Positions 22,384 through 53,299 of a stretch of 64,000 bases of DNA are shown here, piece after piece. A program made the translations under genes and the position numbers. Source of the DNA: a virus. Under the pieces are notes generated by a model. That model searched no databases. It worked only from the letters and a program-made list of their open reading frames with translations, and had not been told where the DNA came from. How positions within the stretch are numbered: the stretch's first letter is position 1; each line of letters starts with the position of its first letter. Location of the stretch: IMG/VR virus record IMGVR_UViG_3300005825_000057, positions 37,534-101,533 of that record; one strand, given 5' to 3'.

Positions 22384-22466
22384 GGGAGTGCTAATGCTGT
22401 GGGAAGCTACGCTGGCTGTAACCCAGCCGCCTTAATGGATAAGGGGTTCGATTCCTCACACTCCCA
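22384..22466 (+). tRNA. tRNA-Tyr (GTA)
   Basis: Acceptor GGGAGTG/CACTCCC, anticodon arm GCTGG-CTGTAAC-CCAGC, variable arm, T-loop TTCGATT. One A-A mismatch in the T-stem. Discriminator A, then CT; no encoded CCA. Confidence 0.8.
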
Positions 22467-22479
22467 CTTGAGAAAAGAA

Positions 22480-22698
22480 ATGAAAGCATACTTGCTGGAT
22501 AAACGTGGAATAAGCAAAGTATATCTTGTCTTCGGAGAAGATTGTGTCTCTGCTGCCAAGGTACTAGCTGAAAAGCTAGGTTGTGATTACGAAGATTTTT
22601 CAGTAGGTGGTTCATGGGATGTTGACCCGAATGAGCCTATAAATTTAAGTCAACTATGGCCTTATTTTACAAATGCCCCCGGAAGGCATAGTACATAA
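22480..22698 (+). CDS. Small unknown protein in the tRNA array
   Basis: 72 aa from ATG 22480 (MKAYLLDKRGISKVYLVFGED...). A longer frame would read through the tRNA and is rejected. Function unknown. Confidence 0.65.
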   Translation: MKAYLLDKRGISKVYLVFGEDCVSAAKVLAEKLGCDYEDFSVGGSWDVDPNEPINLSQLWPYFTNAPGRHST

Positions 22699-22706
22699 GG
22701 AAAAAT

Positions 22707-22788
22707 GGCCTCGTGGTGGAATTGGCAGACACGCCAGACTCAAAATCTGGTGCCGCAAGGCGTGTGGGTTCGAGTCCCACCGAGGCCA
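22707..22788 (+). tRNA. tRNA-Leu (CAA)
   Basis: Acceptor GGCCTCG/CGAGGCC, anticodon arm CCAGA-CTCAAAA-TCTGG, long variable arm TGCCGCAAGGCGT, T-loop TTCGAGT. Discriminator A then CT. Confidence 0.93.
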
Positions 22789-22789
22789 C

Positions 22790-22877
22790 TGGTAGATGGT
22801 GGAAGTTAGACACGGCCCCGTGTAGGGGTTGGTAGGCCGATCACCTACCGTGCAGGTATCGAATCCTGCTCTACCAA
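22790..22877 (+). tRNA. Class II tRNA-like element, anticodon uncertain
   Basis: Acceptor TGGTAGA/TCTACCA, D-arm like the Leu tRNAs, 6-bp variable arm GGTAGG/CCTACC, T-stem GCAGG/CCTGC. The anticodon hairpin CCC-CGTGTAG-GGG lacks U33 and the T-loop TATCGAAT has 8 nt instead of 7. It is the only element here followed by an encoded CCA. Possibly decayed or specialised. Confidence 0.55.
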
Positions 22878-22882
22878 CCACG

Positions 22883-22955
22883 GGACAGGGAGCTAGTGTG
22901 GTCATAGCACTGGACTGAAAATCCAGCAAAATCAGTTCGATTCTGATCCTGTCCA
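22883..22955 (+). tRNA. tRNA-Phe (GAA)
   Basis: Acceptor GGACAGG/CCTGTCC, anticodon arm CTGGA-CTGAAAA-TCCAG, T-arm ATCAG-TTCGATT-CTGAT. Discriminator A then CT. Short variable loop, class I. Confidence 0.9.
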
Positions 22956-22972
22956 CTGTGAAAGGAAAATTT

Positions 22973-23137
22973 ATGGCTAGATCATTGTGTAAAGACCCAA
23001 GTATATCTCAAAAAAACGATGCGAGTTGCATCGGAAATAAACGGGGTATGGCTCGCAGAGCTAAGAGAAATAGCAACAAAAGGGATCGACAAAAACTAGA
23101 CAAAGATTTGAAAGAAAGAATTGCACTTGTTCGGTAA
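22973..23137 (+). CDS. Tiny basic protein
   Basis: 54 aa, very Arg/Lys rich (MARRAKRNSNKRDRQKLDK), GAAAGGA ribosome site. Possibly nucleic-acid binding. Confidence 0.6.
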   Translation: MARSLCKDPSISQKNDASCIGNKRGMARRAKRNSNKRDRQKLDKDLKERIALVR

Positions 23138-23171
23138 TCCGTTGCATATATACTTCTTAAAAGGAGTCTAT

Positions 23172-23579
23172 ATGTTTCAAGATACGAACAACACTTTGAA
23201 TCAAGGCGGCGTTGGGTTAGCGAGGGCGATATATGAGTATCAAAGATTGGGGTACACAGTTTGTTTACCTTTAGTTGATGCTCAAGATTACGACCTTGTA
23301 ATTGAAAAGGATAAAAAGTGGGAGTCTGTTCAATGCAGAACAACTTCTACCAAAGCAAGAAGTAGAAAAGGCGGATTTATTGATGGTAGGTATGAAGTTA
23401 GTTTGAGGACCATAAAAACTAATACAAAAGAGACTACCATTAAAAAGAAAGGTAATTTTGATTTGCTTTTTGTGATGTGTGATAATGGCGATTGTTATTC
23501 GGTGCCGAATAAAGAATTGCCTGAATCTGGCACCACGGTCGGCGGTCCAAAATACGAAAAATACAAAATTGGAAGCTAG
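23172..23579 (+). CDS. PD-(D/E)XK endonuclease-like protein, stop inside tRNA-Ser
   Basis: 135 aa from ATG 23172 (GGAGTCTAT before it). GVGLARAIYEYQRLGY, YDLVIE and ESVQCRTT follow the group I intron-type PD-(D/E)XK nuclease pattern (D...E-x-Q/K). Homing-type role possible. Its last codons and the TAG (23577-23579) lie in the acceptor stem of tRNA-Ser(GCT). Confidence 0.7.
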   Translation: MFQDTNNTLNQGGVGLARAIYEYQRLGYTVCLPLVDAQDYDLVIEKDKKWESVQCRTTSTKARSRKGGFIDGRYEVSLRTIKTNTKETTIKKKGNFDLLFVMCDNGDCYSVPNKELPESGTTVGGPKYEKYKIGS

Positions 23580-23659
23580 GCAACTGCTGGTTTGTTGCAC
23601 CGCTTTGCTAAAGCGGCCCGGTCTAAACCCCGGCGAGGGTTCGATTCCCTTGGCTTCCG
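23571..23659 (+). tRNA. tRNA-Ser (GCT)
   Basis: Acceptor GGAAGCT/GGCTTCC, anticodon arm CCGCT-TTGCTAA-AGCGG, long variable arm, T-loop TTCGATT. Discriminator G then CT. 5' end overlaps the nuclease stop codon. Confidence 0.92.
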
Positions 23660-23660
23660 C

Positions 23661-23741
23661 TTGCTCAAATGCCCGAAGGGATTACATTCTTGAAAAGTGT
23701 GTACCGAAAGGTAAACTATCTCTTTATTATTCGTTGAGCAA
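23661..23741 (+). ncRNA. tRNA-like element A after tRNA-Ser
   Basis: Closed by TTGCTCAA/TTGAGCAA. Contains ACATT-CTTGAAA-AGTGT (an anticodon-like arm reading TGA) and TACC-GAAA-GGTA. No T-loop consensus. Shares GGGATTACATT, GTAAACTAT and TTCGTTG blocks with elements B and C. Confidence 0.45.
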
Positions 23742-23745
23742 ATAT

Positions 23746-23817
23746 GGATCAGTAGCTTAGATGGCAAAGCGTCTGTCTGAACAACAGAAGAGTGGAATTC
23801 GAGCGTCCATTGATCCA
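23746..23817 (+). tRNA. tRNA-Phe-like (GAA)
   Basis: Acceptor GGATCAG/TTGATCC, anticodon arm TCTGT-CTGAACA-ACAGA, T-loop TTCGAGC with one A-G mismatch. C37 instead of the usual purine. Discriminator A then CT. Confidence 0.7.
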
Positions 23818-23822
23818 CTTAT

Positions 23823-23901
23823 GGCCTTGTACGCAAACTTATGGCAAAGCGGCTTCTTTCAAAAAGAAGTGATTTTGTGGGTTCGACTCCCACCAAGGCT
23901 A
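23823..23901 (+). tRNA. tRNA with Leu anticodon CAA but short variable loop
   Basis: Acceptor GGCCTTG/CAAGGCT, D-arm ACGCAAACTTATGGCAAAGCG, anticodon arm CTTCT-TTCAAAA-AGAAG, variable loop only TGATTTT, T-arm GTGGG-TTCGACT-CCCAC. Leu tRNAs normally have a long variable arm. A then CT. Confidence 0.7.
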
Positions 23902-23903
23902 CT

Positions 23904-24104
23904 ATGATGAAATTTTGTGGTGTATGTGGATTTCAATTACAAGGAAAAGGTGTTAAAAGATATAAGACCTGTCCTGAATGCGAAGAAAATGCCCGTGTAC
24001 GCAAATTGGCACAGCGGACTACCTCAGAAGTAGTTGTCTCCCCTTCAACAAGGGATACTGTCGGTTCGAGTCCGACCACGGGTACTTATGGGAAAGAAAA
24101 ATAA
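23904..24104 (+). CDS. Zinc-ribbon protein reading through a tRNA
   Basis: 66 aa. MMKFCGVCGFQLQ ... YKTCPECEEN is a zinc ribbon in the first 30 residues. The same frame then crosses all of tRNA-Leu(CAG) and stops at 24102-24104. The C-terminal half is thus encoded by tRNA sequence. Confidence 0.55.
   Translation: MMKFCGVCGFQLQGKGVKRYKTCPECEENARVRKLAQRTTSEVVVSPSTRDTVGSSPTTGTYGKEK
23991..24084 (+). tRNA. tRNA-Leu (CAG)
   Basis: Acceptor GCCCGTG/CACGGGT, same D-arm type as the short-arm group, anticodon arm ACTAC-CTCAGAA-GTAGT, but a long variable arm (TCCC...GGGA) as expected for Leu. T-arm GTCGG-TTCGAGT-CCGAC. A then CT. Lies within the preceding reading frame. Confidence 0.85.
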
Positions 24105-24252
24105 AAGATATTGTATCCGGGCTAATCCGCCAAAAGGTTGGCAGATATGGGATCGGAAATTGGCAAGATGGTGGGGAAATCCTACAAAGGAATTTCCTTA
24201 TACAGTCTTGCAGAAATTGAATGAAGGAAAGCAGAGTGAATTGAAGTATTAA
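24088..24252 (+). CDS. Tiny unknown protein
   Basis: 54 aa (MGKKNKRYCIRANPPKGWQI...WW), starting 4 bp after the tRNA and ending 2 bp before the next. Weak ribosome site. Confidence 0.55.
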   Translation: MGKKNKRYCIRANPPKGWQIWDRKLARWWGNPTKEFPYTVLQKLNEGKQSELKY

Positions 24253-24254
24253 AT

Positions 24255-24334
24255 GGCCGGGTACGCAAACCTAATGGCAAAGCGGCGAAGCTCAGAACTT
24301 CGTGATTTTATGGGTTCGACTCCCATCCCGGCTA
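24255..24334 (+). tRNA. tRNA with Leu anticodon CAG, short variable loop
   Basis: Acceptor GGCCGGG/CCCGGCT, anticodon arm CGAAG-CTCAGAA-CTTCG, variable loop TGATTTT, T-loop TTCGACT. A then CT. Confidence 0.7.
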
Positions 24335-24336
24335 CT

Positions 24337-24451
24337 GTTTAATTTGGTGTAACGGTAGCATTCCCCCGGAAGGGGCAAGAACGGTTCGACTCCGTATATT
24401 AGTGTAACGGCAGCACAGAAATGAGGATCGGTTCGACTCCGAAAATTAAAC
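24337..24451 (+). tRNA. Composite tandem tRNA-like element
   Basis: A perfect 7-bp outer acceptor GTTTAAT (24337-24343) / ATTAAAC (24445-24451) encloses two tRNA cores: two GTGTAACGGnAGCA D-arms and two CGGTTCGACTCCG T-arms. Only the first has a hairpin at the anticodon position (CCC-CCGGAAG-GGG, no U33). Either two decayed Gln/Glu-type tRNAs or one fused RNA. Confidence 0.5.
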
Positions 24452-24458
24452 AATTTAT

Positions 24459-24534
24459 GGCCTTATACGCAAAATGGCAAAGCGGCTTGTTTTAAAAATA
24501 AGTGATTTTGTGGGTTCGATTCCCACTGAGGCTA
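24459..24534 (+). tRNA. tRNA with Leu anticodon TAA, short variable loop
   Basis: Acceptor GGCCTTA/TGAGGCT, anticodon arm CTTGT-TTTAAAA-ATAAG, variable TGATTTT, T-loop TTCGATT. A then CT. Confidence 0.7.
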
Positions 24535-24547
24535 CTATCCACCCAAT

Positions 24548-24629
24548 GGCCCCGTGGTGGAACCGGCAGACACGCTGGACTTAAAATCCGGTGCCTTCGG
24601 GCGTGAGGGTTCAAATCCCTCCGGGGCCA
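24548..24629 (+). tRNA. tRNA-Leu (TAA)
   Basis: Acceptor GGCCCCG/CGGGGCC, anticodon arm CTGGA-CTTAAAA-TCCGG, long variable arm, T-loop TTCAAAT. A then CT. Confidence 0.93.
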
Positions 24630-24635
24630 CTTTTT

Positions 24636-24723
24636 GGAAGCTAGGTCAGATGTTGGTTCGCTGCACCTGTCTTGAAAACAGGACCGGGTAAAACCGGCGA
24701 GGGTTCGATTCCCTTGGCTTCCG
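24636..24723 (+). tRNA. tRNA-Ser (TGA)
   Basis: Acceptor GGAAGCT/GGCTTCC, anticodon arm CCTGT-CTTGAAA-ACAGG, long variable arm ACCGGGTAAAACCGG, T-loop TTCGATT. G then CT. Confidence 0.93.
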
Positions 24724-24725
24724 CT

Positions 24726-24837
24726 TGCTACAAATGCAAATTAGGAGTACATTGACAAAAGTAAAGTCGTCGGGCAAAACCCGATATATGTGGGTATCGA
24801 ATCCCACTGTAACCTCTTGGTTAAATTCGTTGTAGCA
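24726..24837 (+). ncRNA. tRNA-like element B after tRNA-Ser
   Basis: Closed by TGCTACAA/TTGTAGCA. Contains TCGGG-CAAAA-CCCGA and a T-arm-like GTGGG-TATCGAAT-CCCAC with an 8-nt loop, as in the element at 22790. Blocks shared with element A. Confidence 0.45.
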
Positions 24838-24843
24838 TTTTTT

Positions 24844-24925
24844 GGAAGATAAGCGAATGGTTAGCGGTCACACTGGAAATGTGATGCCCCGCAAGGGGTT
24901 GCGGGTTCGAGTCCCGTGTCTTCCG
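24844..24925 (+). tRNA. tRNA-Ser (GGA)
   Basis: Acceptor GGAAGAT/GTCTTCC, anticodon arm TCACA-CTGGAAA-TGTGA, variable arm GCCCCGCAAGGGGT, T-loop TTCGAGT. G then CT. Confidence 0.93.
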
Positions 24926-24939
24926 CTGGGAGAAAATAA

Positions 24940-25167
24940 ATGGTCACTGTAAAAATTGTTGGTCCCGGTTTGGTTGTGAATAAACCGGCTGCGATAATTT
25001 ACAAAGCATTGACTGAGGCTGGTTACAAAGTTGATCTTGAAGAATTTGCTGGACAACATCAGTATGTTCCAAAAGACGAATGGCCAGAGAAAGAATTAGT
25101 TGATACAGAACGCCAAAAGGGTATGGAAGTCAAAGTGGATGTTGATCCACTCCCTTGGGGCGGATAA
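24940..25167 (+). CDS. Small unknown protein
   Basis: 75 aa (MVTVKIVGPGLVVNKPAAII...), GGGAGAA ribosome site. Alternating beta/alpha pattern. Ends 1 bp before the next tRNA. Confidence 0.65.
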   Translation: MVTVKIVGPGLVVNKPAAIIYKALTEAGYKVDLEEFAGQHQYVPKDEWPEKELVDTERQKGMEVKVDVDPLPWGG

Positions 25168-25168
25168 T

Positions 25169-25257
25169 GGAGAGTAGGCAAATACTGGTTTGTTGCATCT
25201 GATTGGAAATCAGACCCGGTTTAAAACCCGGTGAGGGTTCGATTCCCTTGCTCTCCG
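25169..25257 (+). tRNA. tRNA-Ser (GGA), second copy
   Basis: Acceptor GGAGAGT/GCTCTCC, anticodon arm TCTGA-TTGGAAA-TCAGA, long variable arm, T-loop TTCGATT. G then CT. Body more like the GCT and TGA Ser tRNAs than the other GGA copy. Confidence 0.92.
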
Positions 25258-25262
25258 CTCGC

Positions 25263-25371
25263 ACAGATGAAGGGCGTTCCCCTTAAATGAGAAATTGGCA
25301 TCGAGGGCCAGTGAGCCGTAAGGCGAAGGGCCGGGGCTATGTGGGTTCGAGTCCCATCGCCTTTCATCTGT
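25263..25371 (+). ncRNA. tRNA-like RNA with 14-bp closing helix (element D)
   Basis: ACAGATGAAGGGCG (25263-25276) pairs over 14 bp with CGCCTTTCATCTGT (25358-25371), followed by GTTTTTATA, so it can also end transcription. It holds a T-arm GTGGG-TTCGAGT-CCCAT and a GCC-GTAA-GGC hairpin but no clear anticodon arm. Confidence 0.5.
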
Positions 25372-25393
25372 GTTTTTATAAGTAGGGAAGCTA

Positions 25394-25594
25394 ATGCACG
25401 CCAAAGTTTTTTATACTTTAGGGCAAAGAGATACGATTGCCGGTCTTTTTGCTATGATAAGATCAAAAGGAATAAATTCGACTTTGGCAGAACTTGCGGC
25501 TGAATATACTAAAGCATTTGATGAACCAAATCCCCATGTGGAATGGTGGATAAAACAAAATGAAAAGAAAGAAGATGTAGTTGAAAATGGATAG
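25394..25594 (+). CDS. Small unknown protein, stop inside tRNA-Tyr
   Basis: 66 aa (MHAKVFYTLGQRDTIAGLFA...), preceded by GGGAAGCTA. TAG at 25592-25594 lies in the acceptor stem of tRNA-Tyr. Confidence 0.65.
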   Translation: MHAKVFYTLGQRDTIAGLFAMIRSKGINSTLAELAAEYTKAFDEPNPHVEWWIKQNEKKEDVVENG

Positions 25595-25671
25595 GTTGAG
25601 CAATTGGCTGGCTCGCCAGACTGTAAATCTGGTCCCTTCGGGGCATGTGGGTTCGAGTCCCACCCTATCCA
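25589..25671 (+). tRNA. tRNA-Tyr (GTA), second copy
   Basis: Acceptor GGATAGG/CCTATCC, anticodon arm CCAGA-CTGTAAA-TCTGG, variable arm CCCTTCGGGG, T-loop TTCGAGT. A then CT. Confidence 0.92.
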
Positions 25672-25680
25672 CTGGTTTTT

Positions 25681-25758
25681 GGCTGGGTACGCAAACTTCG
25701 GCAAAGCGGCCACTTCGAGAGAGTGGTGATTTTGTGGGTTCGACTCCCATCCCAGCTA
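25681..25758 (+). tRNA. tRNA with Leu anticodon GAG, short variable loop
   Basis: Acceptor GGCTGGG/CCCAGCT, anticodon arm CCACT-TCGAGAG-AGTGG with C instead of U at position 33, variable TGATTTT, T-loop TTCGACT. A then CT. A different register would read CGA (Ser). Confidence 0.6.
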
Positions 25759-25760
25759 CT

Positions 25761-25988
25761 ATGCATAAGAATTATTACAACCACGATGAATCTGAGAAAC
25801 ATTATCGAAGACATATATCAAACCTTGCGTACCGATATAAATTTAAGGTAATTTACGAAGACGAAAGAATTTTGAAGAAAGAGAATGGCGAAACAACAGT
25901 AATTGTGGATATAACAGAAACACCCCGCAATACTTTATGTTGGAAGGCTTGGCTCAAACTTCAAAATGAATACGAAAATGGATTCTGA
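25761..25988 (+). CDS. Small unknown protein
   Basis: 75 aa (MHKNYYNHDESEKHYRRHIS...), starting 2 bp after a tRNA. Longer frames run back through tRNAs and are rejected. Confidence 0.6.
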   Translation: MHKNYYNHDESEKHYRRHISNLAYRYKFKVIYEDERILKKENGETTVIVDITETPRNTLCWKAWLKLQNEYENGF

Positions 25989-26163
25989 AAAGATCGTGAT
26001 TGATACACAAGAAAAACTTTTGGAACACTTTGGGAAACCAGAGAAAGATTTTTTTGGTATATCTGGTCTTTATATGGATTCATTAGAGAATGGACGAAGA
26101 ATGCAATCGAGGATGGTGGATAACTATTTAAGATTGATATTTAAATTACAAAATGGAAGCTAG
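25966..26163 (+). CDS. Small unknown protein, stop inside tRNA-Ser
   Basis: 65 aa (ATG 25978 also possible). Overlaps the previous gene by 23 bp. TAG at 26161-26163 lies in the acceptor stem of tRNA-Ser(CGA); the last codons read the GGAAGC of the tRNA. Confidence 0.6.
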   Translation: MNTKMDSEKIVIDTQEKLLEHFGKPEKDFFGISGLYMDSLENGRRMQSRMVDNYLRLIFKLQNGS

Positions 26164-26241
26164 GCAGATGTTGGCTTGCTGCACTTGTCTCGAAAACAAG
26201 ACCGGGTAAAACCGGCGAGGGTTCAATTCCCTTGGCTTCCG
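26155..26241 (+). tRNA. tRNA-Ser (CGA)
   Basis: Acceptor GGAAGCT/GGCTTCC, anticodon arm CTTGT-CTCGAAA-ACAAG, long variable arm, T-loop TTCAATT. G then CT. Confidence 0.92.
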
Positions 26242-26433
26242 CTGGGCACTAAAAGTGTCGTTCAAAAAAGTAAACTATTTCATGTAGAAATAAACTTGCT
26301 CCGACACAAAAACAAGAAAGGGCAATTAGAGGGTAGAAATTAAAGTGTAAAAATCCCCAACCCAAAAATAAAAAAATCCATGCTATAATTTGTATTTTTC
26401 TCATACACTATTGTAGTATATAATGAAGAAAAT
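26242..26433 (+). other. Non-coding stretch with element C and a -10 box
   Basis: No gene. GTGTCG/CGACAC (26255-26307) closes a segment sharing AAAAGTGT and GTAAACTAT with element A. TATAAT at 26419-26424, without a good -35, precedes the next tRNA by 9 bp. Confidence 0.4.
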
Positions 26434-26510
26434 GGGGTCGCACGGCGAATTAGTTTGGTAAGGCACAAGTTGCTCCAAGCTATTAGAGGGTTCAACTCCC
26501 TCCGACTCCA
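26434..26510 (+). tRNA. tRNA-like, identity uncertain (Trp CCA?)
   Basis: Acceptor GGGGTCG/CGACTCC and T-arm GAGGG-TTCAACT-CCCTC are intact. The anticodon region AGTTG-CTCCAAG-CTATT reads CCA with imperfect pairing and a variable loop that is too short, so the call is weak. A then CT. Confidence 0.5.
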
Positions 26511-26515
26511 CTTAT

Positions 26516-26597
26516 GGCCTCGTGGTGAAATTGGCATACACGCAAGTCTTAGGAACTTGTGCCGCAAGGCGTGTGGGTTCGAGTCCCACCGAGGCCA
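26516..26597 (+). tRNA. tRNA-Leu (TAG)
   Basis: Acceptor GGCCTCG/CGAGGCC, anticodon arm CAAGT-CTTAGGA-ACTTG, variable arm TGCCGCAAGGCGT, T-loop TTCGAGT. A then CT. Confidence 0.93.
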
Positions 26598-26616
26598 CTT
26601 TAATTTGGAGAATATT

Positions 26617-45176: not shown

Positions 45177-45205
45177 TTTACAAAAATAAATACTCGTGGT
45201 ATAAT
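45177..45205 (+). promoter_or_regulatory. Promoter of the RNase P RNA gene
   Basis: TTTACA (45177-45182), 17 bp ending CGTGG, TATAAT (45200-45205) with extended TG. Expected start about 45212. Confidence 0.8.
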
Positions 45206-45215
45206 CCTCCATGAT

Positions 45216-45450
45216 TGGCGTGTTCCGAGTCTGCGCTGGCGGCGTAAGTCGTTAGAGGAAAGTCGGGCCACATCTGCTCCTTGTGGGAGAGTTCGCTCGT
45301 TAGCACCACAATGCGTGCAAGCCGTACAGACCTAGCCGGTGAGCAGGGCTATGATGGTCGGGTAGGTGCAGTTATCCATAACCGGGTAGCATGGTGAGAA
45401 CCATAGAAAAATGCAGACATAGAACAGAAGTCCGCTTACGGGAACCGCCA
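45216..45450 (+). ncRNA. rnpB: RNase P RNA
   Basis: About 235 nt, catalytic RNA that cuts the 5' leader from pre-tRNAs. P1: TGGCG and GTTCC (45216-45226) with GGAACCGCCA (45441-45450). P2: GTCTGC (45229-45234) with GCAGAC (45413-45418). P3: 8 bp with a GUAA loop (45236-45255). CR I GAGGAAAGUC and CR V ACAGAAGUCCGCUUAC form P4: AAG-bulged U-CGGGC (45260-45268) with GUCCG-CUU (45430-45437), including the universal bulged U. Shorter than host types A/B, so peripheral helices are missing. Own promoter. Confidence 0.88.
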
Positions 45451-45475
45451 GTCTCTTTTTGTTCAAAAGGAGACT
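45450..45475. terminator. 11-bp hairpin after RNase P RNA
   Basis: AGTCTCTTTTT-GTTC-AAAAGGAGACT. Symmetric; no T run follows, so it may protect the 3' end or act on the next ribosome site (AAGGAG is in its arm). Confidence 0.5.
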
Positions 45476-53071: not shown

Positions 53072-53215
53072 GTGATCGACTATGGCAATGTTAATATATG
53101 CCAATTGGGAGATTTGAAATTTCGTGTTGACAATTGGCGTAAAAAGTATAAAAAGAAAAAGGTTTGGCGTTCTATTGAAGAAGAATGGCACCCTACTGCC
53201 GAAGTGGTGGAATAG
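53072..53215 (+). CDS. Tiny protein, stop inside tRNA-Leu
   Basis: 47 aa from GTG 53072, weak ribosome site. VDNWRKKYKKKKVWRSIEEE is basic. TAG at 53213-53215 lies within tRNA-Leu. Confidence 0.45.
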   Translation: MIDYGNVNICQLGDLKFRVDNWRKKYKKKKVWRSIEEEWHPTAEVVE

Positions 53216-53283
53216 GCAGACACAACGGACTTAAAATCCGTTGCTCCGTAAGGGGCGTGCGGGTTCAAGTCCCGCCTTCGGCA
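53198..53283 (+). tRNA. tRNA-Leu (TAA)
   Basis: Acceptor GCCGAAG/CTTCGGC, anticodon arm ACGGA-CTTAAAA-TCCGT, variable arm, T-loop TTCAAGT. A then CT. Lies alone, 27 kb from the array. Confidence 0.93.
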
Positions 53284-53299
53284 CTATCCAGAGAGTAAT

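Follow-up and report, generated by a model that had tools for sequence, protein, structure and literature searches.

A short, diverged RNase P RNA gene encoded by a large tailed phage and its relatives

RNase P RNA is a near-universal ribozyme that, to our knowledge, has so far been treated as a cellular or organellar gene. A locus in a 101,533-bp viral record (G000) raises the question of whether phages carry such a gene as well, and what it would do for them. The stretch analyzed, here called the window, comprises bases 37,534-101,533 of that record (64 kb). An initial annotation, made from the sequence alone, had placed at this locus a phage-encoded RNase P RNA of about 235 nt, well below host size, with its own promoter. 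Genes for a T4-type major head protein, UvsX, a gp32-like SSB, DNA polymerase and a Dda-type helicase are present in the record; with head, recombination and replication functions all represented, we assign it to a large tailed phage. The phage setting is thereby confirmed.

Searching the window with Rfam at gathering thresholds revealed tRNAs only and no RNase P RNA. The bacterial class A model RF00010 (gathering score 100 bits) gave no match to the window, and the best public RNase P model, the archaeal RNaseP_arch (RF00373), reached 18.1 bits (E = 0.0035, E-value mode on a 500-nt stretch) in an alignment spanning the element end to end (45218-45448), without attaining its gathering score of 84 bits. 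A hold-out covariance model, R1, was then used, built from 11 RNAs of the subfamily to which the window belongs (subfamily A) with the window left out, aligned with MAFFT (alignment A1) and given a hand-made structure. Although the window was in view when the structure was drawn, none of the letters in R1 come from it. R1 matched the window RNA with 162.4 bits (E = 4.4e-44), its sole match across the whole 101.5-kb record, compared with a second-best score of 6.9 bits anywhere in the 64-kb window; given this difference for a model lacking the window, a chance match is excluded. The covariance-model search that the initial annotation had named as its check thus gives a match, strong with the phage-built model and weak with public ones, and a phage RNase P RNA of about 235 nt is confirmed on the plus strand (Table 1). 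Thermodynamic folding of the single sequence was uninformative, giving z = -1.9 and a minimum free energy structure that differs from the RNase P fold.

Table 1 Features of the RNase P RNA locus and tRNA genes, in window positions
Feature	Position	Strand	Basis or remark
tRNA array, 16 genes, presumed substrates	22384-26598	+	ARAGORN
Sigma-70-type promoter, TTTACA - 17 nt - TATAAT, TG before -10	45177-45205	+	11/12 consensus matches
RNase P RNA gene	45212-45449	+	Model match 45215-45448; P1 closes at 45449
P1 5' strand (GGCG..UUCC), partner 45441-45449	45217-45226	+	7/8 P1 pairs changed on both sides in relatives
P2 5' strand GUCUGC, partner GCAGAC 45413-45418	45229-45234	+	Model, covariation
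P3 hairpin, GUAA tetraloop 45244-45247	45237-45254	+	Model, covariation
CR I (GAGGAAAGUC) and P4 5' strand with bulged U, partner 45430-45437	45255-45268	+	P4 97.6% of cells paired, 42 distinct sequences; P4 absent from model
P5 5' strand CAC, partner GUG 45315-45317	45269-45271	+	Helix 6, 100% of cells paired
P6 5' strand CUGCUC, pseudoknot with GAGCAG 45341-45346 in P17 loop	45274-45279	+	99-100% paired
Whole specificity domain: P7 (UUGUGG/CCACAA, 45281-45286/45306-45311) around one hairpin, P8	45281-45311	+	Sequence; P7 and P8 covary
P15 45321-45323/45365-45367; P16 45329-45332/45356-45359; P17 45333-45337/45347-45351	45321-45367	+	Model, covariation
L15 GGGUA holding GGU	45360-45364	+	GGU kept in 39/42 homologues by regex
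Variable hairpins, P18 position	45371-45406	+	Insertion relative to model
CR IV-type J18/2 (AUAGAAAAAUGC) running into P2 3' strand	45403-45418	+	Model
CR V (AACAGAAGUCCGCUUA) with P4 3' strand	45423-45438	+	Sequence, model
Inverted repeat AGTCTCTTTT...AAAAGGAGACT directly 3' of P1	45450-45475	+	Sequence; no U run
tRNA-Leu(UAA), closest tRNA gene to the RNase P RNA (7.75 kb)	53198-53284	+	

The identification rests on the hold-out match together with the two universal blocks, CR I (GAGGAAAGUC at 45255-45264) and CR V (ACAGAAGUCCGCUUA at 45424-45438), which form P4 with the bulged U and one G-U wobble pair, as the initial annotation had described, and are crossed by P2 to give the universal RNase P core (clan CL00002). 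The P1, P2 and GUAA-capped P3 that had been judged constructible are placed by the hold-out model. The RNA also has the class A arrangement of P15 with a GGU in L15 and of P6, P16 and P17; in bacterial RNase P, the L15 GGU pairs with the tRNA 3' CCA. The specificity domain, by comparison, totals 31 nt, with P7 enclosing only 19 nt in the window, including P8 (GAG-UUCG-CUC, 45289-45298). P9-P14 with CR II/III do not fit into so short a domain, and the P9-P12 and CR II/III T-loop module of class A in RF00010 is lacking, the CR III motif being absent from the window. J18/2 in the window reads AGAAAAAUG, departing from the usual AGAUAAAUG.

The claimed promoter is present as a sequence close to consensus, from which expression is inferred; promoter-like sites occurred in shuffled regions at a mean of 1.2. 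No intrinsic terminator was found in a search 3' of the RNA: the inverted repeat at that position (10 bp, A/T-rich) is not a canonical one because it lacks a U run. It may be a 3'-end processing site of the RNA.

Homologues were sought in IMG/VR with the gapped pattern GAGGAAAGTC-N-ACAGAANNNNGCTTA at three spacings and with one subfamily-specific pattern scan. About 36 distinct homologues on viral contigs remained after chance matches and near-identical copies had been dropped, and a tighter 3'-end pattern yielded no new ones. The window RNA, one in the uncultured phage LR756511 (595 kb) and those of cultured Microbacterium phages also belong to the family. Subfamily A includes the window, L004, L006, L008, L011, L012, L015, L016, L023, L024, L035, L039, L040, L041, L042, L045 and, from a metagenome-assembled genome (MAG), L048; its viral records range from 12-kb fragments to a 527-kb contig. 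R1 also recognises the other phage RNAs, with 117 bits for LR756511 and 70.7 bits for the RNA of the Microbacterium phage A3Wally. A blastn search of INPHARED with the window RNA gave one real match, a weak one to LR756511 that the R1 score confirms; matches in Yersinia and Salmonella phages were 41-45-nt fragments within coding genes and were rejected.

That the RNAs are homologous to accepted RNase P RNAs, judged by models other than the family's own, is established through these relatives, the window itself reaching only the RF00373 E-value given above. RF00010 matched 13 of 17 subfamily-A records end to end with 46-72 bits (E 1e-15 to 1e-23), all below the gathering score, and the A3Wally RNA with 72 bits, while L007 exceeded that score with 105.5 bits. 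Because the relatives score under the gathering threshold, annotation pipelines miss the family; Rfam thresholds fit full-size RNAs, and standard annotation therefore passes over these genes.

Some members are built differently. The CR III string GTGAAACG was found by regex in only 5 of 42 homologues (L007, L025, L030, L031 and L034). These retain CR II/III-like strings, and three of them lack the GGU string, opposite to what is seen in subfamily A. Reduction may thus have followed two alternative routes, although string matching is a blunt test. Separately, L041:5364-5640 and L045:10745-11040 have about 80-115 additional nucleotides inside the P8 hairpin, possibly an insertion or intron, and L042:3208-3535 (minus strand) holds a tandem pair of RNase P-like RNAs, of which the first breaks off before the 3' half and the second has an altered CR I (GAGGAAGCUC).

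The proposed helices were evaluated by covariation. A structure of 59 pairs, including P4 and P6 as pseudoknots, left 89.4% of cells paired on A1 (11 relatives), compared with 68.3% in shuffled alignments and 34-44% when the structure was slid. The covariation score of 0.573 (versus 0.193) was reached by none of 500 shuffles, and 42 of the 59 pairs change on both sides. P1-P8 and P15-P17, with P4 and P6 as pseudoknots, covary strongly. Since P4 and P6 are not part of R1, the R1 alignment (48 rows, 42 distinct sequences) tests them independently of the model: 98.0% of cells are paired versus 82.7% after shuffling, and 11 of the 14 P4/P6 pairs change on both sides, with P6 reading, for example, CUGUUU/GAACAG. 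Four P4 pairs involve positions not constrained by the search pattern, and one of these pairs splits into A-U 14, C-G 13 and G-C 12; the remaining P4 pairs carry no weight because the pattern fixed them. One candidate, L033, fails all four unconstrained pairs and was set aside as a chance match, as were the pattern matches L046 and L047. The helices of the RNase P core are in this way backed by covariation.

These RNAs might instead be bacterial rnpB genes whose contigs were misclassified or chimeric. In CPR bacteria, RNase P RNAs are diverged and shortened (PMC8172020), and L048 comes from a planctomycete MAG that shows no standard rnpB, on a contig whose genes are of bacterial type. Against this, the window record carries the T4-type head, recombination and replication genes listed above, and the subfamily-A signature has one genuine place in 84,980 GTDB species genomes, L048, versus 16 viral contigs (two other GTDB matches arose by chance), which rejects the window subfamily as a bacterial type. 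The signature was not found in the CPR genomes searched. Across 149 genomes of the planctomycete phylum, R1 gave one strong match, to the L048 contig, while 23 of 24 members of the class have a standard rnpB of 357-585 nt, unlike the phage RNA. For the family, misclassification is refuted by three cultured, named phages that carry a homologue (A3Wally, Zooman and Big4), and for the window we find it hardly credible. In L048 itself (Planctomycetia MAG contig JANXSH010001016.1), the subfamily-A RNA lies beside three tRNAs, and no standard rnpB was found in the MAG; whether this represents an integrated phage tRNA island, a binning artefact or the replacement of a host gene is unexplained.

In A3Wally (MZ150783), which infects Microbacterium foliorum NRRL B-24224, the RNA occupies record positions 93851-94066, between two tRNA-Pro genes within the tRNA array, and the locus is unannotated; Zooman and Big4 carry it too (91% identical). 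The phage RNA is 216 nt long versus 363 nt for the ordinary Microbacterium rnpB (RF00010, 301 bits). Plus-strand blastn against that rnpB locus gave 7-nt matches only and thus no support for capture of the host gene, although a comparison in one orientation is weak. A recently captured host rnpB, now decaying and without function, would account for a length below that of the host gene and for scores below the Rfam thresholds. It would not account for the compensatory changes in most helices, including those in the window's own lineage, and the standard rnpB genes of the 23 planctomycete relatives, like that of Microbacterium within the limits of the comparison, do not resemble the phage RNA. 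We regard such decay as very improbable.

Genes of this kind lie unannotated next to tRNA genes in many large phages, a few of them cultured; the family is widespread among phages, and much of it lies inside tRNA arrays. A tRNA gene occurs within 100 nt of 26 of 42 homologues and within 3 kb of 32, and tRNA genes, as many as 63, were present in each of the nine subfamily-A records checked. The RNA in G000 stands outside the main array, 18.6 kb away, and about 7.7 kb from the closest tRNA. No CCA is encoded in 16 of the 17 window tRNA genes. A tRNA nucleotidyltransferase gene is found outside the window, at G000:C1:22231-23490 (L056:3231-4490; phrog_2244, E 8.4e-39), and of the 16 phage RNase P RNA records searched for this CCA-adding enzyme, 12 encode it, among them G000 and A3Wally.

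The window tRNAs (22384-26598 and 53198-53284) are nearly all class II, with a long variable arm: seven Leu, five Ser, two Tyr, two Phe and one doubtful Thr. tRNAs of class II length also cluster near the RNase P RNA in the relatives L016, L023 and G044 (311-321 kb).

A gene for the protein subunit RnpA (PF00825) was detected in none of 38 records, with 10 of 14 control genomes positive, nor in any of six records searched again or newly, including A3Wally and LR756511. The earlier statement that no RnpA-like protein is recognisable in the window's record is borne out. As the contigs are mostly incomplete, this absence is firm only for records deposited complete, such as A3Wally. A bacterial-type holoenzyme with RnpA from the same genome is therefore not in evidence; host RnpA could supply the protein.

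The explanation that we consider likely is that the phage makes an RNase P RNA subunit from its own promoter, that this RNA with host RnpA cleaves the 5' leaders of phage pre-tRNAs, and that a phage enzyme adds CCA. Homology, fold, phage context, the co-occurrence of tRNAs and CCA-adding enzyme and the lack of RnpA in the records searched are direct observations. On this model, the RNA, whose transcription is inferred, would fold into a complete catalytic domain with P1-P5, the P4/P2 pseudoknot, P6, P15-P17, the CCA-binding GGU and the CR I/IV/V junctions, its specificity domain cut down to P7 and one hairpin. Host RnpA, a partner that we infer, would bind the retained catalytic domain, and the putative holoenzyme would remove 5' leaders from pre-tRNAs encoded by the phage itself, catalysis and the choice of phage tRNAs as main substrates likewise being inferred. 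The phage tRNA nucleotidyltransferase would supply the CCA missing from most phage tRNA genes, to be read by the GGU of L15. Without CR II/III, the T- and D-loops of tRNA should be recognised less well. In type T RNase P, recognition relies on the acceptor stem, CCA and protein contacts, and by analogy the loss of the T-loop module suggests a similar reliance here. Against this explanation stand the distances of the RNA from the closest tRNA and the main array, the atypical J18/2, the weaker substrate recognition expected without CR II/III, a lack of RnpA that is firm only for complete records, and the fact that expression and activity are inferred. The initial reading, in which the phage controls its own pre-tRNA processing, is supported, with pre-tRNA cleavage, with or without host RnpA, remaining an inference.

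The RNA could alternatively act as a decoy: a structured look-alike of RNase P that ties up host RnpA or pre-tRNA and so throttles host RNase P, with no need for catalysis. No record searched has an RnpA gene, so the phage RNA must meet the host's RnpA if any, and its substrate-recognition domain is reduced, both as a decoy would have it. However, CR I, P4 with its bulged U, CR V and the CCA-binding GGU are kept in strongly diverged sequences, although an RnpA sponge would not need them, and the link with tRNA genes and a CCA-adding enzyme fits processing. A decoy role therefore appears improbable to us.

The lack of RnpA, which extends to A3Wally with its genome deposited as complete, and a divergence so great that Rfam misses the RNA would also suit a ribozyme acting alone or with an unrecognised phage protein. 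Bacterial RNase P RNAs, however, generally require RnpA at cellular Mg2+; the two ORFs downstream of the window RNA could be assigned to no family, and there was no systematic search for a conserved neighbour protein. We hold this rather improbable for the RNA described here. The broader proposal of a viral RNase P lineage free of host RnpA, either as a minimal ribozyme alone or with an unrecognised phage protein, is unlikely but a real possibility; if true, large phages could mature tRNAs while host RNase P or the host tRNA pool is shut off in infection.

Returning to the preferred explanation, processing with host RnpA, a phage family that combines an RNase P RNA of its own with tRNA arrays and a CCA-adding enzyme would be partly autonomous in tRNA maturation. 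The phage-tRNA literature examined leaves 5' ends to host RNase P or omits them. We found no earlier report of a phage-encoded RNase P RNA; most subscription papers were outside the reach of the search, so this means not found rather than never reported. RNase P is unmentioned in a huge-phage paper and two jumbo-phage reviews, and one metagenome survey flagged megaphages as records in which Rfam found only tRNAs and a tmRNA (PMC8172020). The naturally occurring series of deletions in the specificity domain of these RNAs would help in asking what RNase P requires, and the cultured Microbacterium phages make the question directly testable.

Among known systems, the phage RNA is most readily compared with bacterial class A (RF00010, the E. 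coli M1 RNA type), with which it shares P1-P5, P7, the pseudoknot of P6 with the P17 loop, P15-P17, the L15 GGU and CR I/IV/V, and to which its relatives align end to end with 46-105 bits. It differs in its length of about 235 nt versus 367 model positions, in scoring below the gathering threshold, in lacking P9-P14 and CR II/III, and in being phage-encoded without an RnpA gene. Of the public models, archaeal RF00373 scores highest on the window itself (18.1 bits); unlike the archaeal RNAs, however, the phage RNA has the bacterial P15-P17/P6 arrangement and L15 GGU, it falls 66 bits below the archaeal gathering score, and its relatives match the bacterial model far better than the archaeal one. 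The minimal type T RNase P RNA of Pyrobaculum has a drastically reduced specificity domain, as does the phage RNA. M- and T-type RNase P RNAs have been reported from archaea only (PMC7191817). RNase P RNAs of CPR bacteria have likewise lost helices and miss Rfam thresholds, but they are chromosomal and some lack the UGG/GGU motif (PMC8172020), whereas the phage RNA keeps the GGU and loses nearly all of the specificity domain. GOLLD/ROOL, tmRNA and theta ribozymes are also structured phage RNAs tied to tRNA arrays (PMC12286853, PMC10879173), and GOLLD or tmRNA occurs in some of the same loci as the phage RNase P RNA (L005, L012 and L013), but their folds are unrelated to it. Theta ribozymes have been proposed to act on 3' trailers in cis (PMC12286853, PMC10879173), whereas a phage RNase P would act on 5' leaders in trans.
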